From positions 1-26,209 of IMG/VR virus record IMGVR_UViG_3300031578_008840: a stretch of 26,209 bases of DNA; one strand, written 5' to 3'. This DNA is from a virus. Of this stretch, positions 2,167-26,209 are shown piece after piece; position 1 is the stretch's first letter, and every line of letters starts with the position of its first letter. The position numbers and the translations under genes were made by a program. The notes under the pieces were generated by a model, which searched no databases, was not told where the DNA came from, and saw only the letters and a list, made by a program, of their open reading frames with translations.

Positions 2167-3207
2167 TCAATATTTTGGCTTTCTTTCCTTTACAAATTGT
2201 GCCTCAACCTCTCTCCATAAAGCAATAGTTTCTCTTTTTAATTTTCGTATCATCAAATTTTCGTATTCAACCATGCTGATTGCATCATCAATGGATCTTC
2301 CTAATTTCAAATCACCAATAACAAATTCAGAATGCTTTCTTATCTGCTTAATGAACTTTAGATTTTGTCGTATATCATCAATTCCATAATCAAAAATAAT
2401 TGATATAGGGGCAGAATGGTATGGTACCCACACAGATGATTTGTAAACATGCACGAATACGTCTATACCAATAACCCTTTTTAGTTCTTTCCCCCCAATC
2501 ATTCTTGTTCTTTTTATTTTTGTAGGGTTGCTGCACTGAAGACGTAAAGAGGAATAGAAACCAATCCCAAGTCCCCCAGGACTACCTTGTTTTTGTTCAT
2601 ATCGACCAGCATCAATTATTGTTCGAACTTGGTTTGAGCATACCATCAAAAAGTTTTTCTTAGTAATGGCCCGACAAGTTTTCCGTAATTCTTCACTGAA
2701 TTCTTTTGCCCTTCTCATCCCATATTGGTCTTTATCATCCAACTCCATTTCAGTGGATAGTGCAGCAAGGGAATCGGTAAAAATACCATGTACCTTATCT
2801 TCTGGTTTTGGGTTCCATGCTCGTACTGGTTTAAATACTTCTGGCACTGTATTTGGATTTTCATATTCAATCGTATCTACATCCAGATTAAATAACCTTG
2901 CAAATTGTTTATTAAGACGAGCCTCTGGATCCTTAAACATTATTTGTCCGCCCTGTTTTTGGACTCGGCCTGCAATTTCACTTAGGAGAACAGTTTTTCC
3001 TGATCCACTGGGGCCAAATATCTCTACCAAAATCCCACTAGGAATCCCTCCATGTCTAAAACGTCCCCCAGAAATTGCTAAATCAAGCAAGGTAGAGCCT
3101 GTGCTAATAGTGATAGTACCACCATCATATTCCAAGGTGGGTTTTACTTTTAGCTTCACATGGTTTTTAACTTGAGTACTTAATTTACTGTTTTTAGTCC
3201 TCTTCAT
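2167..3207 (-). CDS. RecA-family recombinase
   Basis: The 346-aa protein has the RecA core. It shows GGIPSGILVEIFGPSGSGKT, with Walker A GPSGSGKT at 65-72, then a glycine-rich strand ending in DPEA at 93-96 and a Walker B-like strand GIFTDSLAAL at 141-150. The L2-like DNA-binding segment SNQVRT at about 191-196 is followed by QGSPGGLG. Phage RecA/UvsX/Sak4 proteins coat single-stranded DNA and catalyse strand exchange in recombination-dependent replication and repair. The ssDNA-binding protein and a possible mediator lie upstream in the same run of genes. Its length and GPSGSGKT loop fit the RecA/UvsX type better than the shorter Sak4 type. The first eight residues nearly repeat those of the preceding methyltransferase (MKRTK-x-SK). 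Confidence 0.88.
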   Translation of the reverse strand: MKRTKNSKLSTQVKNHVKLKVKPTLEYDGGTITISTGSTLLDLAISGGRFRHGGIPSGILVEIFGPSGSGKTVLLSEIAGRVQKQGGQIMFKDPEARLNKQFARLFNLDVDTIEYENPNTVPEVFKPVRAWNPKPEDKVHGIFTDSLAALSTEMELDDKDQYGMRRAKEFSEELRKTCRAITKKNFLMVCSNQVRTIIDAGRYEQKQGSPGGLGIGFYSSLRLQCSNPTKIKRTRMIGGKELKRVIGIDVFVHVYKSSVWVPYHSAPISIIFDYGIDDIRQNLKFIKQIRKHSEFVIGDLKLGRSIDDAISMVEYENLMIRKLKRETIALWREVEAQFVKERKPKY

Positions 3208-3236
3208 ATTTTATCTCTATGATTTATGTAAATAAT

Positions 3237-3995
3237 CTATATATCCATTGATACCAATACAGCATTAACTCCTGTTCCTGATTCTTTAAAACAGCCTTCT
3301 GGTAGACGTTCTGTGTAACCATTATGCTGATGTATTAAATCCCTAAATTCTACTGTTTTTTTATTTTTTCTAAACAGAATACTGGCCGACATAATTGCAA
3401 CCAATCTTCCCCCAGGCATGAGAAAATTAAGGGCATGGGAAACATGATCAATATCTTGTTGACGTTCGAATGGAGGGTTCATTACCACACGATGGTATAT
3501 AGGGGATGGTTCTACTGCAAGAAAATTCGCCTGCTGTGCCTGGTAGCCTTTTTTCTCAAGTATTGCCACGTTGTCTGATAAAAGTTCTATACAATCAATT
3601 CTACAATCTTTTGGGATAAGATCTGCAATCCCACCTTGTCCAGCAGATGGTTCTAATACCGACATATCACGTTCTATTTTTGCCAATTCGATCAGTTTTA
3701 TTGATATAGTTGCCGGTGTCGGGAAATACCCATATTTTTTAGGCAATGTAATTTTCCCCGTAAGCAAGACATATTCTAGTTTTTCTGTTGGATCTTCGGT
3801 AAAGATATGGCTTTTGCTTTTTCTGTCCCATTTTCCTCCCATATTTTCGAGTACTTCATTAACAGCTAGGTATTGTTTTCTATCCAATTGTTTACAGGAA
3901 AGAAAGATTTTGTTTTCTTTAATTTCTACATTACTTAAAATTGCTAAAATTGCTTCATCAATGGTTTTCCGTTTACTGCTTTTGGTCCTCTTCAT
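3237..3995 (-). CDS. NPPF-type adenine-N6 DNA methyltransferase
   Basis: The 252-aa protein has an N-terminal region of about 85 residues with GGKWDRKSKSHIF. The methylase fold follows: YFPTPATISIKLIELA at 90-105, SAM-binding motif I VLEPSAGQGG at 113-122, an acidic IELL at 136-139 and catalytic motif IV NPPF at 173-176. NPPF/NPPY marks amino-methyltransferases, mostly adenine-N6. The family is common in phages and plasmids without a partner nuclease, where it may protect the genome from host restriction. The start overlaps the upstream gene by 23 nt. The target sequence cannot be read from the protein, and no specificity subunit or nuclease is present nearby. Confidence 0.85.
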   Translation of the reverse strand: MKRTKSSKRKTIDEAILAILSNVEIKENKIFLSCKQLDRKQYLAVNEVLENMGGKWDRKSKSHIFTEDPTEKLEYVLLTGKITLPKKYGYFPTPATISIKLIELAKIERDMSVLEPSAGQGGIADLIPKDCRIDCIELLSDNVAILEKKGYQAQQANFLAVEPSPIYHRVVMNPPFERQQDIDHVSHALNFLMPGGRLVAIMSASILFRKNKKTVEFRDLIHQHNGYTERLPEGCFKESGTGVNAVLVSMDI

Positions 3996-4365
3996 GTTTT
4001 TCCTCTATGGTTTTGATAATTAATGAAATTGTTGTAGACAAAAGTCCCCTTCGTAAAAGAAATTCTTTAATCCCTTCCAGATACTTTTCAAATTTCAAAT
4101 TGGTCTTTTTGCTTTTTTGTGGAAGAAGGTTACTTTTCCATTCTAGCAAAGCTCTTTCTGCAAGTGAGTCTATTATGAATTCAACGTCTTCCTCTTTGGA
4201 TATTTCTTTGCGGATTAAATCCGTCACCATTTTCGTTTTTGTTTTCCCATAGAACAAGGAAAGTAAAGTGAATCGTTCTACCAAGTCCATAGGGACATAG
4301 GCCCCTATGAACTGGTAGTTTTTTTCTCCTTTCTTTTCTGATGGAATACTGAATGGGTTTTTCAT
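3973..4365 (-). CDS. Unknown protein with possible ribbon-helix-helix N-terminus (130 aa)
   Basis: The 130-aa product has a segment YQFIGAYVPMDLVERFTLL followed by YGKTKTKMVTDLIRKEI at about residues 17-54. A short strand followed by two helices, with the pattern 'V-P-x-x-L-x-x-x-F ... K-T-K-T-x-M-V-T-D-L-I', resembles ribbon-helix-helix DNA-binding domains. The rest is helical and charged, ending in EEKHEEDQKQ. It lies between the ssDNA-binding protein gene (12-nt gap) and the methyltransferase gene (23-nt overlap). A DNA-binding or regulatory role is plausible but unproven. Confidence 0.6.
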   Translation of the reverse strand: MKNPFSIPSEKKGEKNYQFIGAYVPMDLVERFTLLSLFYGKTKTKMVTDLIRKEISKEEDVEFIIDSLAERALLEWKSNLLPQKSKKTNLKFEKYLEGIKEFLLRRGLLSTTISLIIKTIEEKHEEDQKQ

Positions 4366-4377
4366 AAGGATTTTTCC

Positions 4378-5355
4378 CTAATCATCTTCTTTTTTAATGA
4401 TACATGCATCCCACAATTCACAATCGTCACATTCATCATATTCTTCTGTATCTATTCCGAATTTGTGTCCATGCGGACATTTTGATTCTTTATTTTCCCG
4501 TTTAGTACGACGGGTGATCCCTGGTTCTTTTTCCTCCTCTTTGTTTTCTGTTCCTTTCACTTCTTTTTCTTCTCTTTGTTCCAGTTCTCCCTTCTCCTCT
4601 CCCCCTTCCTCGCCTTCAAGCTCAAAGAAAATCGTTTCGAGTTCTTTATAGCTCAAAACTTTGAGGGCTTCATCCAAATTAGGAACATCGTCCAGAATCC
4701 CTTCTTCATATCCATTGTCTCTTTCTACAAAATCGATCCTTTTCGCTTCGGCAAACTCCGGTCCCTTCCCAATACGCTTTGTGTCAAACCTGATTTTGAG
4801 AGTTAGCCCTTCTTCAAGATCCGGGAATACTTCATACTCTTCGTTTTCCTCCAGCTCTTCTGTTAAGAGGTTTTGAAAAAGCCATTCACTCATATCCCAA
4901 ATGTGGGGCTCTTCTTTGAATTCACGATGGTTTTTAGGTACTACTACATACAGAACTCGGTATGATGCTTTCGTTTGTGCCAATTCATCTTTATTGGCTC
5001 CTTCCTTTATCTGCTTTGCTCGATAATCACATATGGGACACTTCTTCCCAATTGATGTGGGACAAACATAAGCGTCATTATTGATTCCAACATTTCTATG
5101 GATTTTGAAGGGTCGTTTGTACCAAAGATCTCCCACACGGGCAATTTCTCTTTCATCATCATGATCCATATGTTTTGGGTCAGTGACTTCATACGGCAAG
5201 ATGTCCAGACTTACCCTTTTTCCTGGTTCTTCTTGGAATTCGAGTACTCCCTTGGGAAGTATTAAATACCCGAATTGTGCCATCCTCTTCTTCTTTGTTT
5301 GGGCGTTGTAGTTTACCTTACCTTTGAATCTACTTCTCTTTCTTTCTCTTGGCAT
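4378..5355 (-). CDS. gp32-like single-stranded DNA-binding protein
   Basis: This 325-aa protein looks like a relative of T4 gp32. A basic N-terminus is followed by a core with a zinc site H86-x11-C98-x7-C106-x2-C109 (IHRNVG ... VCPTSIGKKCPICDYR) and then KASYRVLYVVV, matching the order and spacing style of the gp32 Zn subdomain. A long Glu/Lys-rich linker at about 245-285 and an acidic C-terminal tail are typical of SSBs that recruit replication partners. Unlike T4 gp32 it carries a second Cys/His cluster near the end (C293, H295, H297, C309, C312, C318; KCPHGHKFG ... DECDDCELWDAC). It would coat ssDNA during replication and recombination. The start overlaps the 53-aa membrane peptide gene by 26 nt. 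Confidence 0.8.
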   Translation of the reverse strand: MPRERKRSRFKGKVNYNAQTKKKRMAQFGYLILPKGVLEFQEEPGKRVSLDILPYEVTDPKHMDHDDEREIARVGDLWYKRPFKIHRNVGINNDAYVCPTSIGKKCPICDYRAKQIKEGANKDELAQTKASYRVLYVVVPKNHREFKEEPHIWDMSEWLFQNLLTEELEENEEYEVFPDLEEGLTLKIRFDTKRIGKGPEFAEAKRIDFVERDNGYEEGILDDVPNLDEALKVLSYKELETIFFELEGEEGGEEKGELEQREEKEVKGTENKEEEKEPGITRRTKRENKESKCPHGHKFGIDTEEYDECDDCELWDACIIKKEDD

Positions 5356-6465: not shown

Positions 6466-7031
6466 GACTCCACCCCTAGACTTATTTCTTTTAGGTCTTT
6501 CTCCCCAACGATCTTACATTTAGACACCCGGAACTTACCGTCGGTTGCCGTGGGTATTGCTGCGATATCTTTCGCGGTAAACTCTGCAATCAAAATCCGA
6601 TAGCCCTTTTGCCAATTATTCATGCACCAATCCATCGTAGCCAGATTAATACCGGCCCCGCACTTTACGTCAATTTGCATGTCAGCATCGGATACAGTGT
6701 AGGTTCCGCCGATTTTATAGATAATGCCGCCGTTGTATGGTCCCTCGCTGTTCCCGTTGACTAATTTATAAGCGCGTATTTTCCCCGGTTGATCCAACAA
6801 CACAAGCAGGGGGGTGCATCTATATGGATTAACCCCACTGGCTTCGTACAGGTCGGCTCTGAACAGGTAGGCTCTGAACAGGTTGGCTCTGAACAGGTTG
6901 GCTCCGTACAGGTTGGCTCCGTACAGGTTGGCTCCGGACCTAACCGCTGCCTCCACACACAGTTTCATGTTTTCTGTTTCTAGCGAAAACAGCACGTCAC
7001 CGGAAAGTCTATGCTTTATTTCAAACTTCAT
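6462..7031 (-). CDS. Pentapeptide-repeat protein with DUF5758-like C-terminal domain
   Basis: The 189-aa product has, at about residues 32-65, consecutive five-residue units of A-[N/D]-L-[Y/F]-x (GANLYGANLYGANLFRANLF and on), the hallmark of the right-handed quadrilateral beta-helix of pentapeptide proteins. The remainder (about 85-189), with YNGGIIYKIG, CGAGINLATMDWC, YRILIAEFTAKDIAAIP and FRVSKCKIVGEKDL, matches my memory of the DUF5758 type of phage domain. Some pentapeptide proteins mimic DNA and inhibit gyrase, but seven or so repeats form a short helix and that role is not shown. A good AAGGAG site precedes the start. The repeats are almost perfect at the DNA level (6847-6936). Confidence 0.8.
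   Translation of the reverse strand: MKFEIKHRLSGDVLFSLETENMKLCVEAAVRSGANLYGANLYGANLFRANLFRAYLFRADLYEASGVNPYRCTPLLVLLDQPGKIRAYKLVNGNSEGPYNGGIIYKIGGTYTVSDADMQIDVKCGAGINLATMDWCMNNWQKGYRILIAEFTAKDIAAIPTATDGKFRVSKCKIVGEKDLKEISLGVES
6847..6936 (-). repeat. Six tandem 15-bp repeats coding pentapeptides
   Basis: Six consecutive 15-bp units at 6847, 6862, 6877, 6892, 6907 and 6922 have the plus-strand consensus [t/a]acaggt[t/a/c]ggctc[t/c]g. Each encodes one pentapeptide of the protein above. Units 5 and 6 are identical and units 3 and 4 differ by one base. Such identity suggests recent expansion by slippage or unequal recombination, and the copy number may vary between relatives. Confidence 0.9.
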
Positions 7032-7057
7032 AACTCCTTCCTACAAAATTAAAAACG

Positions 7058-7111
7058 TTAAGTAGATGATCCGGGAACGCCTTTTTTGGGGTTCGACAAT
7101 TCGCGTTTCAT
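7058..7111 (-). CDS. 17-codon leader ORF (tentative)
   Basis: This is the first ATG after the promoter at 7134-7163. The frame encodes MKRELSNPKKGVPGSST and stops 26 nt before the pentapeptide gene. A perfect AGGAGG lies ten bases upstream of the ATG, so ribosomes should load here. It could be a leader peptide, a remnant gene start (compare MKRDLS at the start of the gene at 6340), or simply the landing site that feeds translation into the next gene. No rare-codon run or attenuator hairpin was seen. Confidence 0.35.
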   Translation of the reverse strand: MKRELSNPKKGVPGSST

Positions 7112-7133
7112 GATTGCTTCTTCCTCCTATTAT

Positions 7134-7163
7134 ATTATACTAGACAAGACCTGTTTTATTTAA
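7134..7163 (-). promoter_or_regulatory. Middle-type promoter A (TTAAAT-N18-TATAAT)
   Basis: On the minus strand TTAAATAAA (7163 downward) is followed, exactly 18 nt after its TTAAAT, by TATAAT at 7139-7134. A TAGGAGGA ribosome-binding site follows within a few bases. The same element and the same spacing occur at 14953-14982 and 19085-19114. It lies in the gap after the clamp-loader gene and would drive the accessory block and the genes beyond. Confidence 0.7.
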
Positions 7164-7171
7164 GGGCACTT

Positions 7172-8086
7172 TTATTCACCCTCTTTAATTACTGAATAGC
7201 AAGCGAAAATCAAGCCAGGTATCCCAGAATTATAAAAAGGATTGATAAACTCCTCCATTACCATTGCTGCATAATCATTTTCACCTTTCAATAAAATTGC
7301 TTGACAATATCCAAGGACCGCACGACGTATTTTTTCTGGGTCTTCCCCTTTCAATTCGTTTAAAAGAAAAGCCGTTTTTTTCCAGGAAGCCTTCCCTAAT
7401 AAAGCTCTGCAAAGTTCAATTGATTTGGTTTGTTTTTCCGTTAGTTCTTTTGATATCACCATTTGCTTTTCAGGATCTATAAATAAGAGCTGGTCAAGTA
7501 TTTGTATAGCGTCCCTGGGTCTTCCAAGACTGTTTTCTATTATTTGGTCATACATCGATTTTCTTAACTGTCCCCCTTCAGCCTTCACTATTTTTCGTAA
7601 TAACAACATCATTTGATCTTCATTAAGGGGAGTAACTGGGTATTGGCTACATCTTCCCTTAATTGTTGATAGAAGCTTTTCTGGATCTGTAGTACATAGT
7701 ATAAAATGGACATGGGTAGGAGGATCTTCTAAGGCTTTTAATAAAGCGTTTTGGGCGTCATTCGTGAGCTTGTGACACTCATCAAGCAACCATATTTGTG
7801 TGTCTCCTTCCAATGGTTTAAATTGAATGTATTCTCGTATTTCTCGAATTGTATCAATGCCTCGGAAATCAGCAGAATCAATTTCACGAAAATCCCATCC
7901 TTTACAGGATAATTCTGAAGCAATGATTCTTCCCAATGTCGTTTTTCCACATCCCGTAGGACCATAAAAGAGAAAGGCGCAAGGAGGGTGTTCCTTTTTT
8001 AGATCAGCCTTTAGCATTTCTAAAGTACTTTCATTCCCAAATACTTCATCGAATGTTTTTGGACGGTATTTATGATATAAGGCCAT
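7172..8086 (-). CDS. DnaX-like clamp-loader ATPase (gamma/tau type)
   Basis: The 304-aa product opens YHKYRPKTFDEVFGNE, the classic start of DnaX and RFC proteins. Walker A is GPTGCGKT at 42-49, Walker B with DECH is WLLDECH at 99-105, sensor 1 is the TT at 132-133, and the SRC-like arginine-finger region is GRCSQYP at 144-150. The bacterial DnaX four-cysteine zinc module is absent and the protein is much shorter than full tau, lacking the domains that bind DnaB and polymerase alpha. It would load the phage beta-type clamp (11646-12650) in an ATP-dependent way, perhaps as a homo-oligomer since no delta subunit is seen. It is preceded by an AGGA ribosome-binding site, with a 12-nt gap after the methyltransferase stop. 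Confidence 0.87.
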   Translation of the reverse strand: MALYHKYRPKTFDEVFGNESTLEMLKADLKKEHPPCAFLFYGPTGCGKTTLGRIIASELSCKGWDFREIDSADFRGIDTIREIREYIQFKPLEGDTQIWLLDECHKLTNDAQNALLKALEDPPTHVHFILCTTDPEKLLSTIKGRCSQYPVTPLNEDQMMLLLRKIVKAEGGQLRKSMYDQIIENSLGRPRDAIQILDQLLFIDPEKQMVISKELTEKQTKSIELCRALLGKASWKKTAFLLNELKGEDPEKIRRAVLGYCQAILLKGENDYAAMVMEEFINPFYNSGIPGLIFACYSVIKEGE

Positions 8087-8098
8087 TTCGTTTTCCTT

Positions 8099-8794
8099 TC
8101 ATGGAAAGAAACCCCTCTTCGGTTTCTTCTCTGGATGTTGTTCAATAAAAGTAGCAAGGCTCAATCTTTTTGCAGCTATCTCGCAGTATTTTTCTTCTAT
8201 CTCTATGCCGATGGCCTTGCGGCCCAGATCTTTGGCAGCTCGCAAGGTGGTGCCGGAACCCATGAAGGGGTCGAGAACTGATGCAGTTGACAGCAACCTT
8301 ATTGCTCGTGCCATTATTCTGTATGGCGTATATCCTGGGTGGCCATAAGTTTCTTCACGAAAAAAATAGCCCTCTCCCTTTAACCGAATATCTTCCCACA
8401 AATCTTTTTCACAGTAATTTGGCTTTCCTACGGCCCATGCCACCTCAAACTGGTCGCTCCACCCTCCTCTAAAGGGGCCCCTAGCACCACGACGGATGGT
8501 TATTAAATGCCCATCTGTGAATAACGACGACCAAAATTGCATTTGGTATCGAGGGGCAACCCAAAACTGATTTTTTGCAACAACACGCGATAAAGACACA
8601 ATTCTTGTCATAGAATCTTGGTACTTGTTTGTTGGGAGATTATCTTTATATGCACCATAATCTTTGCCAGCATTATACGGCGGATCCGTCAGTACCAGGT
8701 CGATCTTCGGCAGGTGTGGTAGGATGTCTCGACAATCCCCGTGGTAGATCGTGCAGTAGTCGTCTTGATAGTATGGTGCCGGTGCTTTACCCAT
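8099..8794 (-). CDS. DPPY-type DNA methyltransferase
   Basis: The protein (231 aa from the chosen start) has DYCTIYHGDCRDIL then LVLTDPPYN, with catalytic DPPY at 37-40 and the SAM-binding FxGxG motif DPFMGSGTT at 175-183. Motif IV comes before motif I, which is the order of beta-class amino-methyltransferases (adenine-N6 or cytosine-N4). The end GRKAIGIEIEEKYCEIAAKR is typical of the family. The start at 8794 was chosen over ATG 8812 because AGGAGG stands four bases before it and because the 8-nt overlap with the ASCH fragment matches the arrangement at 483-490. No restriction nuclease is nearby, so this is probably an orphan enzyme for antirestriction or regulation. Confidence 0.87.
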   Translation of the reverse strand: MGKAPAPYYQDDYCTIYHGDCRDILPHLPKIDLVLTDPPYNAGKDYGAYKDNLPTNKYQDSMTRIVSLSRVVAKNQFWVAPRYQMQFWSSLFTDGHLITIRRGARGPFRGGWSDQFEVAWAVGKPNYCEKDLWEDIRLKGEGYFFREETYGHPGYTPYRIMARAIRLLSTASVLDPFMGSGTTLRAAKDLGRKAIGIEIEEKYCEIAAKRLSLATFIEQHPEKKPKRGFFP

Positions 8795-8894
8795 CAATCC
8801 TCCTAAATTCATCTACCTCTACCCAGGGGTTGCTATCCCAGGGGTATTTTTTGCCGTAGAGGGATTGCCAAATTTTTTCGTAAGCTTCTAGCAT
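8787..8894 (-). pseudogene. C-terminal fragment of a second ASCH-type gene
   Basis: A 35-codon frame from ATG 8894 to TAA 8787 encodes MLEAYEKIWQSLYGKKYPWD then SNPWVEVDEFRRIDG. It aligns with the last ~32 residues of the full ASCH protein at 483-1055 (VYAEFWDSIYAKKHPWESSLW then AWVYELRRIDG), with an in-frame TAA just upstream and no N-terminal part. It may be translated as a short peptide. Its final codons AGG AGG ATT GAT GG supply the ribosome-binding site and overlapping ATG of the methyltransferase, exactly as the intact gene does for its neighbour. Confidence 0.75.
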
Positions 8895-8969
8895 TTCTTA
8901 TGCCCTCTTGTATTTCTTTAGTCAAAATTTTATTCCCTCTATAGGTTTATATTGCTTTTGTAGTGATCG

Positions 8970-8999
8970 TTTATTCTCAGTCTTATTTTACCCTGTCAA
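8970..8999 (-). promoter_or_regulatory. Candidate sigma-70-like promoter upstream of methyltransferase
   Basis: In the 113-nt gap between the polymerase stop and the ASCH fragment, the minus strand has a perfect TTGACA (8999-8994), an 18-nt spacer and AATAAA (8975-8970), a four-of-six match to TATAAT. No terminator hairpin was seen in the same gap. The -10 is weak, so this is only a candidate. Confidence 0.4.
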
Positions 9000-9007
9000 T
9001 AACCTGT

Positions 9008-10402
9008 TTAGCCTAAATTATATGCTTCCTTTGTTGACCACGGTTGGTCAACCCCACAAACATCTGCTTCAACTTCTAATGGGACAATAATCCAAGGCCA
9101 CGCTTTAGGTAATGCTTCGCACATAATCCTTTGTGCTGTTTCTAAAGTATAATCGAATTCTTTTGGTAAAACATCTAATAAAATGGCATCGTGAATTTGC
9201 CCAACTAATCGACTACCCCAGTCTTCTTTTAAACTCAGTTCATCTATTTCAATAAAGGACCATAATAGGCAATGGAAGGCAGAGCCTTGTATTGGTCGGT
9301 TTATGGCTTCGTTTTTTCGCATAACCCCACCGCAACGGAAGCCTGTTAACATATCTAAGCACCCTGTTTTTTGGTACAATTCCCACCACTCTTCCTTCCA
9401 ATCTCGGTATACAGGAAAACGGACGTTCCAAAATTTTTCCTCTACCTTTCGTACATGCTCTTCAAATTCAGCATATGAATTGATACCATTCATGATAAAA
9501 TGATCAGACAAATACCCTAATGGCATTTTAAGCCCTTCACCCCTTCTCCATTTTTTCTTTGATAGCCCTCCCCATTGGCAGGCCAATCCATCAGCACAGT
9601 GAACGTAGTAATCACCATAAAATTGCGGAAAAACAAACCCACTCTTTGCAGCATTTCGTAGTGTTTTATGTATGGGATCCTTTTTGTTTATAGATTGTAG
9701 TAGGAATAGCTCTTTTGCCATATCCAAATGCATGTCCAAACTTGGGTCTTTCATTTCTGCAATCATATTTGGATCTTTGTGATAGCAGGAGGCTACCTTA
9801 ACTTCAATTCTTGAATAATCAAGCTCGACTAATTGATGTCCTGGTCTCGGGAAAACCGCTCTTCTACAAATCTTCATTGCTTCTTCATCTCGAATAGGGA
9901 TGTTTTGGAAGTTTGGATGATCAACGCTTGAGCGGTATGTAACAGTAGTATGTAAATTAGAAAAAGGATGAATGTACCCCCCTATCTGTTCCCTAGCGAA
10001 AGCTTCTAGATACGTATCTCGTATTTTTTTCAATTGTTTTATTTTCAATAGATCTTGAATTTCAGGAATTCCTAACTGCGATAATGTTTTTTCATCTGTT
10101 GATCCTTGCTTTTCAGAAGAAGTGAGTTTTGGAGGAACAACCCCCCTTAAATCATAAAGTAGATGTGCAAGTTGGGTGCCGGAATTAAAATTAGTAGAAG
10201 CACCATATGCTTTTCTCCATTCTTTAAATAATTCAGAATCAGATAATTGCTTTTCTAGTCGATCAATTTTACGAGTTAAATGGGCTTTTTTTCTTTTACA
10301 ATACTCTACATCAATCCGTATCCCCATAACACCCGCCCGCCCAAAGGATAACACTCCTTTATGGAGGAGTTCATAGGCTTCTTTTGTAGTGGCTTGCATC
10401 AT
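9008..10402 (-). CDS. Family A DNA polymerase, polymerase domain only
   Basis: The start is set at ATG 10402, which overlaps the upstream stop as ATGA. The frame extends further only to a TTG at 10465. The 464-aa product carries the three family A motifs: A, LVELDYSRIE at about 191-200; B, RNAAKSGFVFPQFYG at about 249-263; and C, VGQIHDAILLDV with the catalytic HD at about 404-405. The residue after HD is Ala where Pol I has Glu. There is no 3'-5' or 5'-3' exonuclease domain in this chain; the proofreading domain is encoded by the adjacent upstream gene. It would be the replicative polymerase, working with the phage clamp and loader. Confidence 0.9.
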   Translation of the reverse strand: MMQATTKEAYELLHKGVLSFGRAGVMGIRIDVEYCKRKKAHLTRKIDRLEKQLSDSELFKEWRKAYGASTNFNSGTQLAHLLYDLRGVVPPKLTSSEKQGSTDEKTLSQLGIPEIQDLLKIKQLKKIRDTYLEAFAREQIGGYIHPFSNLHTTVTYRSSVDHPNFQNIPIRDEEAMKICRRAVFPRPGHQLVELDYSRIEVKVASCYHKDPNMIAEMKDPSLDMHLDMAKELFLLQSINKKDPIHKTLRNAAKSGFVFPQFYGDYYVHCADGLACQWGGLSKKKWRRGEGLKMPLGYLSDHFIMNGINSYAEFEEHVRKVEEKFWNVRFPVYRDWKEEWWELYQKTGCLDMLTGFRCGGVMRKNEAINRPIQGSAFHCLLWSFIEIDELSLKEDWGSRLVGQIHDAILLDVLPKEFDYTLETAQRIMCEALPKAWPWIIVPLEVEADVCGVDQPWSTKEAYNLG

Positions 10403-11646
10403 CCGTAAATCTCTTTCTTCTGTTTGATCACCAATTTGTGGTGGAATATATTGTCCAATCCACAATAGGTTAACAATTGGGTCCTCTTTTCTTTTGTCTT
10501 TAATAATTCTGTAATTCGGTTTATTGAATTGGCGTTTTTTGGGTCTATTCCTTGTAGATACCCTTCAATTTCACTACTATAATCAACGACACCAAAATTT
10601 ACATATGTTTGAAATTTTAGCCCGGTGATGTCTGGTCGGTTATCTAGTACATGAGCGGCAATCATTGAGTCCCAATACCATACTTGTATATCATATCCAA
10701 GAAAATGGTGAATCCACGTATGTTCAAAACTCATATTGTGGGCACTTTTTCTCATCTTCGATTGTAGAACGGTCTTTAACAAAGCCAAGTTTTCTTTTTG
10801 TTTTGGTAACATAAATACATATGCTTGGTCTTTGCGGTGGGAAAGGGATAAGCAAATAATTCGGTGTCCCTCTGCGTGTGGTTTAAGCCCCGTTGTTTCT
10901 ATATCTAAAGAAAGCAACCCACTACGATGTTGGTGAGTGGTTGCTTCAATTTCTACAAGGATTTTTGTTAGCTCATTAGGGGATTCTATTATTTGTACTT
11001 GCTCTCCTTCATTGCAATAATCTGGTAAGGGAATATTTACCATTCCAAGAGCCCGTTCAAGATCCTGTAACCAAATAGTGGTTACATGTTCTTCTTCTCT
11101 GGCAACGTAACTTGGATGGAAGATGGGACATACCCAAGCATTAAAATCTCGGTCGGGAATAGTCCAACCCCGCCATTTAAATATCCCACCCAAGTCCTTT
11201 TTCCATCGATGTCCTAGAAAAGAAAAAACAGCAGATCCACCAAGTAAAATGATTACTTTGGGGTGGTATTCTTCTATTGTTTTCATTACTCGACTTCTAC
11301 AACAAGCTATTTCCTGGGGGGTGGGGGTCCTGTTATTCCCATTCTTGGTAGTTGGCCGACAATTGACTGAATTGATATTAAGACAATCTTCGAACAAATC
11401 GATACCCAATCTTCTATATGTTTTTTTGAGTAATCTGCCAACCGTGCCTTGCCATTGTTTTCCCCTTTCGTCTTCTGTAGCTCCTGGGGCTTCTCCTATA
11501 TTAAGGATTCCTTTTCTGAAATTACCAAAAGGCTCCATTCGAGGGGAGATTACTTCACGATATAAACCACAGGAAGCACAGGAAAGGATCTTTCCATTCG
11601 GCCTAGAAATTGATTCCGTTTCTTTTTTGGTAAAAAAGCCTTCCAT
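10399..11646 (-). CDS. Family 4 uracil-DNA glycosylase fused to a 3'-5' exonuclease
   Basis: ATG 11646 is preferred over TTG 11679 because it forms a TAATG junction with the clamp stop. The 415-aa product has two domains. Residues 20-200 are a family 4/5 UDG: cysteines C23 and C26 plus C96 and C116 for the [4Fe-4S] cluster, GEAPGATEDE at 51-60, NINSVNCRPT at 91-99 and FHPSY at 177-181. Residues 243-410 are a DnaQ/Pol I-type exonuclease: DIET at 248-251 (Exo I), AHNMSFEH at 302-309 (Exo II, with Glu where Asp is usual) and YCGLD at 394-398 (Exo III). SPO1-like phages carry UDG-like, exonuclease and polymerase domains in one chain; here the chain is split before the polymerase. Confidence 0.87.
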   Translation of the reverse strand: MEGFFTKKETESISRPNGKILSCASCGLYREVISPRMEPFGNFRKGILNIGEAPGATEDERGKQWQGTVGRLLKKTYRRLGIDLFEDCLNINSVNCRPTTKNGNNRTPTPQEIACCRSRVMKTIEEYHPKVIILLGGSAVFSFLGHRWKKDLGGIFKWRGWTIPDRDFNAWVCPIFHPSYVAREEEHVTTIWLQDLERALGMVNIPLPDYCNEGEQVQIIESPNELTKILVEIEATTHQHRSGLLSLDIETTGLKPHAEGHRIICLSLSHRKDQAYVFMLPKQKENLALLKTVLQSKMRKSAHNMSFEHTWIHHFLGYDIQVWYWDSMIAAHVLDNRPDITGLKFQTYVNFGVVDYSSEIEGYLQGIDPKNANSINRITELLKTKEKRTQLLTYCGLDNIFHHKLVIKQKKEIYG

Positions 11647-12650
11647 TAATTTCTCTGTAAAGCTATAACATGTTCCCAATTATTGCCAGTAAATTTCACT
11701 TGGTTTTCTCCAAGAATACAAGTACCAGCTTGCTCAACAATTTCCTTTAAAAAAGTTGGGTTGATGGAAAATGTAATTGGATCTTCCCTATACTTGATAT
11801 GAGATGTTTCTTCAAACCACGCACCATCCATTTTTGCACAAATTTTCATTTGTTCATCACTAAGCGTTATTTTAATTGATTCATTCAAAAACTGTTCTTG
11901 CTTTGAGAAAACGCTAGCACGATCCAACGATTCTCCAATAGATTTTGGTAGGACAATCTCTTTTCCTTTGACTTCGAGGATAGGGGAAGTGTCTGGAAAA
12001 CGATCCTCAAATATTCTACATGAAAATAGGGTTTTTTCCTCTGTTTTGAAGTGAACCCATCCCCGTCCTTCTGCTATTTTGACTATCGGATATTTTACAA
12101 GTTCCCTTATGGATGATACAGGTGTGAGAAAGGTATTGGTTGGCATTGCTTCTTTTTGTTGATACCTGGTCACGCGAAAATTATCTGTGGATTCTACAAT
12201 TCCATCCTTTCTGACATTCACACAGGTCAATACCGGTCTACTCATATCCTTTGAGCAACTGAACATGCAAAATTTAAGTGCTTTTATAAATCCATCAGGA
12301 AGCGTCTTCCATTTCTCGTGTTCTCCGATTTCTTCAAGAGGTAGTTTTATTTCGGATTGAAGGGTGAGTCCGGCAGATACTTTCCCTGATTTAAGAATGA
12401 TTTCGGATTCACTGCATTCCAGTTCAACTTCATCTTGTTCAAGCTTAGATAGGAGTTTATAAAGTTCTTCTGCTCTGATTGCCCCTTCAATTTTAAGTTC
12501 TGGGACTGGATGGGAAATGCTTACTTCATTATTATATGTAAGAACACGCCCCTTTATGAAAGCAAAAGAAGTTGATTGAGAAATAAGTTCCTTGTTTGCA
12601 AGTCCTGGTTTTACTATCTCAAGTGCTTTTAAAAGAGATTGTCTTTTCAT
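11646..12650 (-). CDS. Beta-type DNA sliding clamp (DnaN-like)
   Basis: The 334-aa protein has the length and internal repeat style of a bacterial beta clamp. The clearest stretch is CSKDMSRPVLTCVNVRKDGI then ESTDNFRVTRY at about 130-162, corresponding to the conserved 'S-x-D-x-x-R-P-x-L' and 'T-D-x-x-R' motifs at the start of the second domain. A later FEDRFPDTS resembles the 'x-G-x-F-P-D' region. It should form a ring dimer that tethers the phage polymerase. The start overlaps the radical SAM gene's stop as ATGA, and its stop overlaps the UDG-exo start, so three genes are coupled. Confidence 0.8.
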   Translation of the reverse strand: MKRQSLLKALEIVKPGLANKELISQSTSFAFIKGRVLTYNNEVSISHPVPELKIEGAIRAEELYKLLSKLEQDEVELECSESEIILKSGKVSAGLTLQSEIKLPLEEIGEHEKWKTLPDGFIKALKFCMFSCSKDMSRPVLTCVNVRKDGIVESTDNFRVTRYQQKEAMPTNTFLTPVSSIRELVKYPIVKIAEGRGWVHFKTEEKTLFSCRIFEDRFPDTSPILEVKGKEIVLPKSIGESLDRASVFSKQEQFLNESIKITLSDEQMKICAKMDGAWFEETSHIKYREDPITFSINPTFLKEIVEQAGTCILGENQVKFTGNNWEHVIALQRN

Positions 12651-19084: not shown

Positions 19085-19114
19085 ATTATACGACTACATA
19101 ACAAGTTCATTTAA
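19085..19114 (-). promoter_or_regulatory. Middle-type promoter C (TTAAAT-N18-TATAAT)
   Basis: TTAAATGAA lies inside the last codons of the sigma-like gene (ATC TTA AAT GAA). Exactly 18 nt after TTAAAT comes TATAAT at 19090-19085, then AAAGGAGGAA and the ATG at 19064. It is the same module as promoters A and B and would start the primase-initiator-helicase transcript. Confidence 0.72.
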
Positions 19115-19603
19115 GATTTGTTTTATTTCGTTAAAACTAGACCAGATTCTAGGCCAGCTCCATCCTTGTTTTCGTAATAGTCTGTACAATTCTCCTCGAA
19201 CGAGTTTCGGGGGACCCACTTCTAAAAAGTCAATGGGGCTTGTAAAAATAAGTTTGCAGATACTTTGAGAATCCAAGGACATTTTTTGTAGGGCTTCTTT
19301 AAAAATCAAGGATTTGTCTGGAGGGGGTTCGTTTCCTTCTATTCCTTCAAGTTGGCCCTCTCCTAGAGAAGGAAAGCATTTTTTGTATCTTTGTGTGGCA
19401 GAAAGATATGTGATTAGATGATTTTTCATAATAGTAACAGCCCATGTACTGAGTTTTCCTTTTTCTGGATCATGCGTTTCCAGGGATTTTATATACCCAA
19501 GGTACGCTTCGTTGAACAGCTCTCTTATATCAATCCCGGTGGATTTATGAAAACCCCAAGCAATTTTTAGGATTAGTTTTATGTCTTTTTTTACGTGGTT
19601 CAT
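19094..19603 (-). CDS. Sigma-70-like factor (region 2 present)
   Basis: Residues 22-68 of this 169-aa protein, with GIDIRELFNEAYLGYIKSLE, then THDPEKGKLSTWAVTIMKNH and LITYL, match sigma region 2: the 'D-L-x-x-E-A-x-L-G-x-x-K-A' helix, 'F-D-P-x-x-G-x-x-F-S-T-W-A' and the -10-binding helix. The C-terminal part ends GELYRLLRKQGWSWPRIW followed by SSFNEIKQIL, a pattern I associate with small phage sigma-like proteins; a standard region 4 helix-turn-helix is not evident. It should bind core RNA polymerase and redirect it to phage promoters. The gene overlaps the SNF2 helicase stop as ATGA and contains promoter C at its end. Confidence 0.78.
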   Translation of the reverse strand: MNHVKKDIKLILKIAWGFHKSTGIDIRELFNEAYLGYIKSLETHDPEKGKLSTWAVTIMKNHLITYLSATQRYKKCFPSLGEGQLEGIEGNEPPPDKSLIFKEALQKMSLDSQSICKLIFTSPIDFLEVGPPKLVRGELYRLLRKQGWSWPRIWSSFNEIKQILNELVM

Positions 19604-22564: not shown

Positions 22565-23137
22565 GTGGAAAGAACAAAAGTAAATGGTAATGGTAATAAA
22601 GGGGGTAGGCCGTCAATCTATAATGATAGTATACCAGATAGGGCCTACCGCCTTTGTCTATTAGGATTAATAGATACAGAGCTTGCAATCGCTTTTGATG
22701 TAGATGTTAGTACGATTGATAATTGGAAGAAAGTTCATCCTGAATTTTCAAAGGCCTTAAAAAAAGGGAAAAAGGATGCAGATGCAAAAGTGGCGGTTTC
22801 TTTATTTCAGAGAGCTAATGGTTATTCTCACCCTAGCGAGCATATTACTACTCGTAAAGTTGTGAATGATGGTATGGAAGAGATAGAGATTATTAAAACA
22901 CCAATTATTAAACACTACGCCCCAGACACTACAGCATGTATCTTTTGGTTAAAGAATCGGCAAAAGGAATTATGGAGGGATGTAAACCGAAATGAGATCA
23001 CTGGAGCAGACGGTGCCCCTCTTGTATTAGAGCATAAGGCTGACTTGTCAGAATTTAGCGATGATGAACTGAAGTTGGCTGTGAAATTGGGTTTTAGAAA
23101 GAAAGCATTGGCTGGTAAAAAGAAGGAAGAGGATTGA
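22565..23137 (+). CDS. Terminase small subunit
   Basis: The GTG-initiated 190-aa product begins MERTKVNGNGNKGGRPSIYN. A helix-turn-helix with AYRLCLLGLIDTELAIAFDV and STIDNWKKVHPEFSKALKKG fits residues 26-70. KVAVSLFQRANGYSHP and the C-terminal FWLKNRQKELWRDVNR are common in this small-terminase family. It would recognise the packaging site on the genome and recruit the large subunit. Its stop overlaps the next start (TGATG). The GTG is favoured by GAGG upstream and by the family-typical N-terminus. Confidence 0.88.
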   Translation: MERTKVNGNGNKGGRPSIYNDSIPDRAYRLCLLGLIDTELAIAFDVDVSTIDNWKKVHPEFSKALKKGKKDADAKVAVSLFQRANGYSHPSEHITTRKVVNDGMEEIEIIKTPIIKHYAPDTTACIFWLKNRQKELWRDVNRNEITGADGAPLVLEHKADLSEFSDDELKLAVKLGFRKKALAGKKKEED

Positions 23138-24684
23138 TGCAAGGGAATTTAGCCATTGACTTAATTAGAACTCGTAGTAAGGGGAAGACCGAGCGGTTTC
23201 AGGAAGCTGTTAATTCCCCTAGACAAGCCATGGCTGAATTATGTCGGCGTAATTTCTTCTACTTCATGAATGTCTTTTGGGATGTTGTTTCCCCGGAAGA
23301 GCCAAAATGGAATTGGCATATTGAGTATCTTACCAAAGAATTGGAAATTGTGGCTCGTAGGGTAGCTGCCGGTTTGCCTAGAGAATATGACCTTATTATT
23401 AACATTCCACCTGGCACAACCAAATCAATTACCTGTTCAATAATGTTTCCGGTATGGTGTTGGATTAACTGGGCTTGGATGCGGTTTATTGTTGCAAGTT
23501 ATTCGGGGGCCTTGTCCTTAGAGCATGCAGAATATAGCAGGGACCTTGTGCGTTCAGATAAATTTAAATGGCTTTTCCCAGAACTTGAAATTAAGCAGGA
23601 TAAAGATACCAAGTCGAATTTTCGAATACAGACAAAAGCTTTTGATAAGTATGGAAGAATTATTCAGCGGATCCCTGGGGGAAATCGTTTTAGTACTTCT
23701 GTGGGAGGGACCCTTACTGGATTTCACGCTCATATTGCATTAGTAGATGATGCCCTAGATCCAAACAGGGCCGTTAGCGATACTGAGTTAAAATCCACTA
23801 ATAGATGGATTGATCAAACCCTTAGTACCCGTAAAATTGATAAAGCAGTAACGGTTACTGTATTAATCATGCAACGATTGCATCAGAATGATCCTGTAGG
23901 ACACATCCTTGATAAGAAGAAAGCCAATGTTAAACATATTTGTCTTCCTGGAGAAATTAAGAATTATGAAAAAGAAGTAAAGCCCCCAGAGCTGATAGAA
24001 AATTATGTAGAGCAATTACTCGATCCAGTGCGTATGGATTGGACAGTAATGAAGGATTTAGAAGCAGATCTTGGTCAGTATGGGTATGCTGGCCAAGTGG
24101 GGCAGTTGCCTACTCCTCCTGGTGGGGGTATGTTTAAGGTTGATCATTTTCATAATATAGATATGATGCCTGCCCCTATAAATATTATCCAAACAGTACG
24201 GTATTGGGATAAAGCAGGAACGGATGATGGTGGGGCTTATACAGTAGGTACCAAGATGCATAAATTGAGGAACGGCAAATTCCTTATCTCTGATGTTAAG
24301 CGTTTTCGTAAATCGAGTGAAGAGCGGGAAGCACTAATCAAAGAAACAGCAGAAGCCGATGGACGGGAAGTGGTAATATATATGGAGCAGGAGCCCGGGT
24401 CAAGTGGGAAAGACTCGGTTAATGCTTCAATACGGAATCTATCAGGCTTTGCGGCATACCCAGATAGTCCTACAGGGGATAAAGTGTATCGAGCAGACCC
24501 ATTTAGTGTGCAGGTGAATGGAGGAAGCGTGTTGTTATTGACGGCTGATTGGAATAGGGATTTTCTGGACGAGTATCGTTTCTTTCCTTTTTCTACTTAT
24601 AAGGATCAGGTGGATTCAGGGGCAGGGGCTTTTAATAAGTTGGCTGGTAAAAGAGAGGTACGAGTGCTAACCAAAAGGGGATGA
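23137..24684 (+). CDS. Terminase large subunit
   Basis: The start is the ATG at 23137 (515 aa), not the TTG three bases earlier, because AGGAAGAGGA precedes it and TGATG couples it to the small subunit. The ATPase part has a variant Walker A, IPPGTTKS at 90-97, and Walker B ALVDDAL at 201-207. The nuclease part shows RYWDKAGTDDGGAYTVG, YMEQEPGSSGKDSV and KDQVDSGAGAFNKL, with the acidic residues expected of an RNase H-like nuclease. The order and motifs match Terminase_6/XtmB-type proteins. It powers DNA packaging into the capsid and cuts the concatemer. The stop overlaps the transporter start as ATGA. Confidence 0.92.
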   Translation: MQGNLAIDLIRTRSKGKTERFQEAVNSPRQAMAELCRRNFFYFMNVFWDVVSPEEPKWNWHIEYLTKELEIVARRVAAGLPREYDLIINIPPGTTKSITCSIMFPVWCWINWAWMRFIVASYSGALSLEHAEYSRDLVRSDKFKWLFPELEIKQDKDTKSNFRIQTKAFDKYGRIIQRIPGGNRFSTSVGGTLTGFHAHIALVDDALDPNRAVSDTELKSTNRWIDQTLSTRKIDKAVTVTVLIMQRLHQNDPVGHILDKKKANVKHICLPGEIKNYEKEVKPPELIENYVEQLLDPVRMDWTVMKDLEADLGQYGYAGQVGQLPTPPGGGMFKVDHFHNIDMMPAPINIIQTVRYWDKAGTDDGGAYTVGTKMHKLRNGKFLISDVKRFRKSSEEREALIKETAEADGREVVIYMEQEPGSSGKDSVNASIRNLSGFAAYPDSPTGDKVYRADPFSVQVNGGSVLLLTADWNRDFLDEYRFFPFSTYKDQVDSGAGAFNKLAGKREVRVLTKRG

Positions 24685-25565
24685 GGAAAAATATTGTGAC
24701 TCGTATTTTAATGGCCATTTGGATTACTTGTCTTATTATAGGGGGGATTGGTCTTTTGTACTTAACATTCTCTCCAGCTACAATTCCAACAAATCAAACC
24801 ATTGGAGGAGTGTTGCTTTGCTTTCTACTTTTTGGTATGGCCTTGTTGGCAGAATATATTGACTCTTCTTTAGGTATGGGATATGGGACGGTGCTTTGTC
24901 CGGTGCTTCTTATATTTGGGTATACTCCATTACAGATCGTTCCGGCCTTGCTGTTTTCTGAGTTTTTGTCCGGTGTTGCCGCAGGAGGGTACCATCATCG
25001 GGTAGGTAACGTAGATCTCCGAATAGGTACGTTGACTGGGAAAACGGCTTTGATAATCGCGGCTTGTTCTTTAGTAGGTACCGTTATGGCTGTTTTTGTT
25101 GCAATCTCGATTCCAACACTATTTGTAAAGGTTTATATTGGCTCCATGATTTTATGTATTGGCCTATTTATTATTTTAAGTAAAAGCTCCCTTTTAAAGT
25201 TTTCATGGAGCAAAATTGTAGGACTGGGTTTAGTGGCTGCATTTAATAAAGGGGTTTCGGGGGGAGGATATGGGCCTTTGGTAACTGGTGGGCAAGTGAT
25301 GTTAGGGGTCCCGAGCAAAAGCGCGGTTGGGATTACATCATTAGCAGAAGGACTATCCTGCTTTGTTGGATTGGTTTTGTATGTGATCTTCCGGGGGGCT
25401 TTGGATTGGACCCTCGCGGTTCCCCTAGCTCTTGGGGCATTCCTTTCTATACCTGTGGCAGTATGGACGGTTAAGTTAGTTCCTGAGCATCGGATAAGGG
25501 GATTGATTGGATATGTAACAGTATTTTTAGGGGCCTTAACGTTGATTAAGATTATAGGAGCGTAA
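24681..25565 (+). CDS. TSUP (TauE/SafE, DUF81) family membrane transporter
   Basis: The 294-aa product is very hydrophobic, with about eight membrane helices. It has the two related TSUP signatures: DSSLGMGYGTVLCPVLL at 61-77 followed by VPALLFSEFLSG, and KGVSGGGYGPLVTGGQV at 190-206 followed by AVGITSLAEGLSC. HHRVGNVDLR at 105-114 is also typical. Known TSUP members move sulfite, sulfonates, sulfoacetate or other small anions across the membrane; the substrate here is unknown. The reading frame is intact and ATGA-coupled to the large terminase gene, with the portal start 1 nt after its stop. This is not a packaging protein, so it is probably an auxiliary metabolic gene. Confidence 0.9.
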   Translation: MRKNIVTRILMAIWITCLIIGGIGLLYLTFSPATIPTNQTIGGVLLCFLLFGMALLAEYIDSSLGMGYGTVLCPVLLIFGYTPLQIVPALLFSEFLSGVAAGGYHHRVGNVDLRIGTLTGKTALIIAACSLVGTVMAVFVAISIPTLFVKVYIGSMILCIGLFIILSKSSLLKFSWSKIVGLGLVAAFNKGVSGGGYGPLVTGGQVMLGVPSKSAVGITSLAEGLSCFVGLVLYVIFRGALDWTLAVPLALGAFLSIPVAVWTVKLVPEHRIRGLIGYVTVFLGALTLIKIIGA

Positions 25566-25566
25566 A

Positions 25567-26209
25567 GTGGCTGCATCTAAAAAAGAAAGGATACATCCAA
25601 GACTTCAAGCATTAGGGGCGTTAATATCCAGGGCCAGCTTGATGTCAAAACTTGGGTTCTCTTATAATGATGAGCGGAATTTGTATCAAGCCCTGGGATG
25701 GCCTACTGTTCTTACCTACAATGATTATGCAGCTCATTTTGCACGGCAAGATATAGCCAAAGCCATAATAGATAGACCAGTAAACGCAACATGGCGCGGG
25801 AAGGTGGATTTACTGGAATCAGATGATGACGATGAAACGGCATTGGAAAAGGCATGGAAGGATCTTTATACAGATTTAGATCTCAAGTCAAGATTTATTC
25901 GCTTGGACCGATTGGTTGGTTTAGGCAAGTATGGTGTTTTGTTCTTGGGTTTTAATGATACTTCAGAGCGAGAAGGGCTTGCTTTACCGGTGTCTTCAGG
26001 GAGGCATAAGTTAATGTATGTAAAACCGTTAGGAGAAGAGAGTGCACAGATCTCAACTTGGGTGACCAATCCATCTGATGAGCGTTATGGTAAACCATTA
26101 CTATATGACTGTTCTATACAAAACCTTTCGGGAGGTGAGACTGCTGTTCAATTGAAGGTGCATTATACTAGGGTTTTGCATGTAGCTGATGGATTGATGG
26201 AATCAGAAA
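25567..26209 (+). CDS. Portal protein, N-terminal part (runs off right edge)
   Basis: A GTG at 25567, with ATAGGAG seven bases upstream and 1 nt after the transporter stop, opens a frame that stays open to the end of the window (214 codons). The sequence YNDYAAHFARQDIAKAIIDR then PVNATWRGKVDLL, and RFIRLDRLVGLGKYGVLFLG matches the start of DUF1073-like phage portal proteins ('Y-x-x-Y ... R-x-x-I-A-x-x-I-I-D-x-P ... W-R', then 'G-x-A-x-L-x-x-G'). Portal is also the expected gene after the large terminase. It would form the dodecameric ring at one capsid vertex. Some DUF1073 portals are annotated as Acb1-family in databases; the part seen here is portal-like. Confidence 0.85.
   Translation, partial: MAASKKERIHPRLQALGALISRASLMSKLGFSYNDERNLYQALGWPTVLTYNDYAAHFARQDIAKAIIDRPVNATWRGKVDLLESDDDDETALEKAWKDLYTDLDLKSRFIRLDRLVGLGKYGVLFLGFNDTSEREGLALPVSSGRHKLMYVKPLGEESAQISTWVTNPSDERYGKPLLYDCSIQNLSGGETAVQLKVHYTRVLHVADGLMESE

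Follow-up and report, generated by a model that had tools for sequence, protein, structure and literature searches.

Why a phage should carry a membrane transporter gene inside its packaging operon, and what such a transporter would do during infection, are the questions raised by this locus. The window, by which we mean the whole analysed stretch of 26,209 bases from a virus record, ends at position 26209 inside the portal gene. Its right end carries the small and large terminase genes (terS and terL), a TSUP (TauE/SafE-type) transporter gene and the portal fragment, all on the + strand:

22565..23137, + strand, terminase small subunit, terS (phrog_309, E = 5.3e-48)
23134..24684, + strand, terminase large subunit, terL (phrog_38, E = 6.9e-73; PF17289, Terminase_6C)
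24681..24684, + strand, ATGA overlap of the terL stop codon and the TSUP start codon (read in the sequence)
24681..25565, + strand, TSUP (TauE/SafE-type) transporter gene, 294 aa, probable sulfate importer as judged from sequence (PF01925 match)
24861..24890, + strand, first TSUP signature, DSSLGMGYGT, residues 61-70 (alignment A2)
25245..25295, + strand, second TSUP signature, NKGVSGGGYGPLVTGGQ, residues 189-205 (alignment A2)
25567..26208, + strand, portal gene, first 214 codons (PF06381, E = 1.8e-13; phrog_146, E = 2.6e-24)

Two start codons are candidates for terL (TTG at 23134 or ATG at 23137). The TSUP reading frame begins with ATG, has no internal stops, and is separated by a single base (25566) from the portal GTG at 25567. 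The initial annotation had described a complete gene between terL and portal, with an ATGA overlap, a 1-nt gap, an intact frame and both TSUP signatures; direct reading of the sequence bears out this description and its coordinates, the signatures being the paired motifs listed above.

PF01925 (TauE) matched the protein with E = 6.9e-27 and 95.1 bits against a cut-off of 32.6, with residues 50-285 aligned to profile positions 1-235 of 237. Across 53 relatives (alignment A2), D61, G65-G67, G69 and T70 of the first signature are invariant, as are K190, G191 and S193-P199 of the second, whose conserved part is NKGVSGGGYGP. In this 53-member subfamily alignment 61 positions reach at least 90% conservation, and the phage protein keeps all 61. 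The AlphaFold2 model (pLDDT 88.8, pTM 0.87) is all-helical, with short helices at both glycine-rich signatures (68-78 and 197-207), and the two halves of the protein align weakly to one another. The phage TSUP thereby resembles TauE/SafE proteins in its full-length profile match, two glycine-rich signatures and all-helical model, but differs in being phage-encoded between terL and portal and in belonging to a subfamily that appears tied to sulfate activation, not sulfonate breakdown. Sequence search returned no credible solved homologous structure. BacA/UppP was the best fold match (E about 0.01, TM 0.56) and was read as common architecture, not function; the only match in a viral fold library, a pandoravirus membrane transporter, was weak (E = 0.003).

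The arrangement would be an artefact if the terL-portal junction came from a chimeric assembly or from contaminating host DNA. Protein search found one close relative with the terminase-TSUP-portal order that the initial annotation had proposed to look for, on IMG/VR contig L001 (sample 3300014613). This contig has the order terS-terL-TSUP-portal, the same ATGA overlap at 2152-2155, and a full-length portal homolog at 3038-4453. The two TSUP genes share 87.8% DNA identity and 94.2% protein identity, and they differ at 17, 7 and 84 sites in codon positions 1, 2 and 3, respectively. With dN of 0.032 and dS of 0.545 (dN/dS about 0.06), set beside terL (dN 0.015, dS 0.235) and the portal part (dN 0.061, dS 0.583), TSUP is under purifying selection and is as constrained as the terminase. 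Since L001 has the same order, the TSUP junction is not chimeric, unless the two records go back to a single misassembled source. The exact order is known from two contigs only, and yet both junctions recur in an independent contig that is 88% identical in the gene, the dN/dS is as low as that of terL, and the G+C of TSUP (0.427) matches that of terL (0.420) and the portal part (0.421); an artefact is therefore hardly credible. In the same comparison, TSUP and portal have dS values of 0.55-0.58, well above the 0.20-0.24 of terS and terL. This step suggests that recombination had a breakpoint close to where terL meets TSUP.

The gene is also placed where phages of this kind accept cargo. Both terL and portal were found in 67 terL-related records that lack TSUP. 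The two genes abut (gap of at most 60 bp) in 42 of these, are 61-400 bp apart in 14, and are more than 400 bp apart in the remaining 11. The statement that terminase and portal are normally adjacent thus holds for the 42 but fails for the 11 with cargo of more than 400 bp. The terL-portal junction is a recurrent insertion point, and a foreign gene could therefore settle there. Other junction cargo, identified by eye, includes cold-shock-like and tail-fibre-like ORFs. TSUP was absent from 50 related records except L001, which rules it out as a general trait of the phage clade. Two further junctions are recorded as observations. L009 has a CMP-sugar cytidylyltransferase (PF02348, E = 2e-43) in the terL-portal slot at 7503-8201. 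A related 82 kb phage (L044) has methyltransferase-, sulfotransferase- and glycosyltransferase-like ORFs at 8238-11219, with identities assigned partly by eye and about 5 kb from terL to the next large ORF.

Genome contigs yielded nothing to a single-protein query and 355 confirmed matches to a six-sequence alignment (A1). The best 80 of the 355 come mostly from uncultured bacteria and archaea, with identity up to 59% and lineages including Eisenbacteria, Planctomycetota, Victivallaceae, Aminicenantes, Omnitrophota and DPANN archaea. The window gene and its L001 counterpart form a clade in the tree (support 100) that is nested with ten bacterial genes in a group of twelve (SH-aLRT 95); members of this group all align from near the N-terminus, and other relatives are shorter. 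A smaller tree gave similar nearest rows, with the group of twelve not starred. Nested as it is with bacterial genes, the phage TSUP is by phylogeny of cellular origin. It stands on a branch of its own, unlike the recent single-host contaminant against which the initial annotation had cautioned. A related-prophage search for the host, in which terL was sought in 50 genomes carrying the subfamily, found none and was run without a positive control.

The subfamily also occurs in four further phage lineages (L168, L169/L170, L171 and L172), whose TSUPs are placed elsewhere in the tree. Genes for terL, portal, head or virion proteins are present in L169, L171 and L172, and L168 is a phage-classed contig from a 115 kb record. 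L169 likewise has its transporter in the terL-portal interval, amid about 10 kb of cargo, and its terL belongs to another PHROG. A single origin of all viral TSUPs was weakly rejected (AU p = 0.027, with long branches present), which makes more than one viral acquisition likely on phylogenetic grounds.

The finding of viral surroundings in two contigs, a position nested among bacterial genes and maintenance by selection is best explained if the phage TSUP is a host-derived auxiliary metabolic gene with a predicted metabolic effect. The initial annotation had suggested such a gene at a late-gene position, and its suggestion fits the shared order in L001, the low dN/dS and the cellular origin. 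Its alternative term, moron, suits the locus poorly. In the strict sense a moron has its own promoter and terminator, and the 4-base overlap and 1-base gap leave zero intergenic space; consensus scans for promoters and terminators gave hits inside genes, which were not counted as evidence. Nor does the base composition deviate from that of the neighbours. A further suggestion, that the protein acts as an exclusion factor in a lysogen, finds nothing to build on, as a non-exhaustive scan of the window proteins identified no lysogeny gene. A transporter of some other oxyanion, or a moron-like membrane protein for exclusion or lysogenic fitness, is improbable on balance. TSUP is a diverse family whose substrates are little known (PMC5840216), and a late membrane protein could change the cell surface; against this stand the absence of an independent transcription unit and of a recognised lysogeny gene in the scan, and the gene neighbours of cellular relatives, which point to sulfate.

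These neighbours were clustered for the best 80 of the 355 cellular matches. Rrf2 regulators occur near 22 of the 80 loci and are adjacent in 19. CysN lies near 14, in seven cases on the same strand and no more than 200 bp away, and CysD near 11; both were assigned from GTP_EFTU-type and PAPS_reduct matches plus tandem order. ATP sulfurylase (Sat) was found near three loci by clustering, and APS kinase (CysC) is also present. By rough judgement, with one cysN to a genome of several megabases, a placement within 5 kb would be rare by chance. Rrf2 regulators have iron-sulfur functions too. Within the group of twelve, L093 and L095 show TSUP, a PF00685 sulfotransferase, CysD and then CysN, with CysN fused to an APS kinase domain in L093, and an Rrf2 gene is adjacent in L088, L089 and L091 (the last by clustering). 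No sulfonate-breakdown cluster emerged among the neighbours of the 80 loci, which were surveyed by clustering and not gene by gene.

Functional work on the family is consistent with uptake. The Pseudomonas fluorescens TauE homolog TK06_RS10770 enables an E. coli cysA mutant to grow again and is by experiment a sulfate importer, and transposon data tie Acidovorax Ac3H11_578 to sulfate adenylyltransferase (PMC11535334). Both of these sulfate uptake transporters are chromosomal, and their comparison with the phage TSUP is at the level of the shared Pfam family. Taken together, the sulfate-activation and Rrf2 neighbours and the complementation by a TauE homolog favour sulfate import over sulfite export, and the phage TSUP probably imports sulfate, with both substrate and direction predicted from sequence context. 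The initial annotation had instead favoured export of sulfite, sulfonates or related anions. That reading has in its favour that TauE and SafE, which gave the family its name, are exporters (PMC11535334) and that the phage protein belongs to PF01925. The conserved neighbours of its subfamily are nevertheless genes of sulfate activation, with no sulfonate-breakdown cluster emerging among the 80 loci, and we consider an exporter unlikely. The automatic label "sulfite exporter TauE/SafE" would be misleading for the phage gene.

It is hypothesized that a host-derived TSUP gene inserted at the variable terL-portal junction and that late transcription of the packaging operon would yield the transporter together with terL and portal. 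The protein would enter the host inner membrane and import sulfate or a close oxyanion, and the imported sulfate would raise APS and PAPS through host or phage enzymes. PAPS would then be used by sulfotransferase-like enzymes whose genes lie farther down the late operon, in many cases close to genes for glycan modification. We give this reading as a whole, in which a sulfate importer made late in infection supplies PAPS-dependent sulfation, a probability of roughly 0.4. Because the window ends inside the portal gene and the sink would lie outside the contig, we infer the use in sulfation. Late expression is likewise predicted, and so is a sulfotransferase of the window phage itself, encoded in the late region past the contig end. 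No other sulfur genes were recognised among the window proteins scanned.

The case for a sulfotransferase sink comes from related and other phages. Sulfotransferase-like genes occur in all four of the other TSUP phage lineages, with best E-values between 2e-17 and 4e-6; in three lineages they pass a Pfam cut-off. APS kinase is encoded in L171 (E = 2e-47) and L172 (E = 3e-33), and was over cut-off in none of 44 terL relatives that lack TSUP; L171 also encodes NeuB and a CMP-sugar transferase close to TSUP. Among TSUP-less terL relatives with at least 20 kb past terL, eight of nine have late-strand sulfotransferase-like genes, five over the PF13469 cut-off, and half of the 14 with 10-20 kb past terL have such genes as well. 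None of 30 arbitrary viral records (a 15-mer pick; 18 over 20 kb) had a match, although this sample is small and unmatched in habitat. Most of the sulfotransferase-like proteins encoded by terL relatives keep a P-loop-like RSG[ST] motif, and some matches fall below the Pfam cut-off. A sulfotransferase family name is no proof of PAPS use.

Sulfate import could instead serve general assimilation (cysteine, methionine, thiolation) during infection. The linkage to CysND, ATP sulfurylase and Rrf2 fits this too, and phage cysC and cysH are usually so read (PMC10914622). Sulfotransferase-like genes are, however, present in all four TSUP phage lineages, a sulfotransferase adjoins the transporter in L093 and L095, and genes for sulfite reductase or cysteine synthesis were lacking beside those viral TSUPs that were inspected by eye. 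If sulfate is imported, we therefore lean towards sulfation as its sink, and an importer for general assimilation is a secondary possibility to be kept in mind, though a rather unlikely one.

Reported phage sulfur auxiliary genes include cysC and cysH (PMC10914622) and dsrA, dsrC, soxC and soxD (PMC8190135). Like TSUP these are host-derived sulfur genes in phage genomes, and one of them, cysC (APS kinase), co-occurs with the TSUP subfamily in L171 and L172; they encode enzymes, whereas TSUP is a membrane transporter. A text search of PMC8190135 found no mention of a transporter. Phages also carry PF13469 sulfotransferase-family genes, for example the OM43 phages, in a role stated as unclear (PMC10580990). 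This family is frequent among the late genes of terL relatives and recurs in all the other TSUP phage lineages found, and a transporter would be an extra, upstream step. No TSUP relative was found in 50,697 phage records (INPHARED), the phage TSUP has no PHROG or NCBIfam assignment, and full-text literature searches on TauE among phage auxiliary genes returned no phage TSUP; these sources may still miss phage genes of this family. Given that the known phage sulfur genes in the literature searched are enzymes, a sulfate-type importer would add a transport step. The repeated co-occurrence of sulfotransferase, TSUP, APS kinase and glycan genes leads to a testable proposal of late-infection sulfation. 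More speculatively, and with some doubt, several unrelated tailed-phage lineages may run a late-gene sulfation pathway in which a sulfate importer, PAPS synthesis and sulfotransferases would decorate virion or host-surface glycans, with the terL-portal junction as one cargo site.

Several minor observations were made in passing. Right after TSUP, L168 encodes an isopropylmalate/isocitrate dehydrogenase, a homocitrate-synthase-like HMGL protein and an aconitase-type swivel domain (6741-9373), a trio from a 2-oxoacid elongation pathway like that for leucine or lysine. In L173 (1429-2777) and L174 (1447-2778), on the minus strand, a late sulfotransferase-like gene is accompanied by another conserved gene (MAW.IP..W.GGT.WIIG.GTS), similar on visual inspection to DUF115/MptE-like proteins; the two are possibly a glycan-modification pair. 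The window itself encodes a sigma-70 region 2 protein (PF04542, E = 1e-11) at 19094-19603 on the minus strand, which may be a sigma factor for the phage's middle or late transcription. At 10399-11679, also on the minus strand, a uracil-DNA-glycosylase domain and a DNA polymerase A 3'-5' exonuclease domain share a single ORF, and a separate polymerase A ORF (9008-10465) adjoins it.
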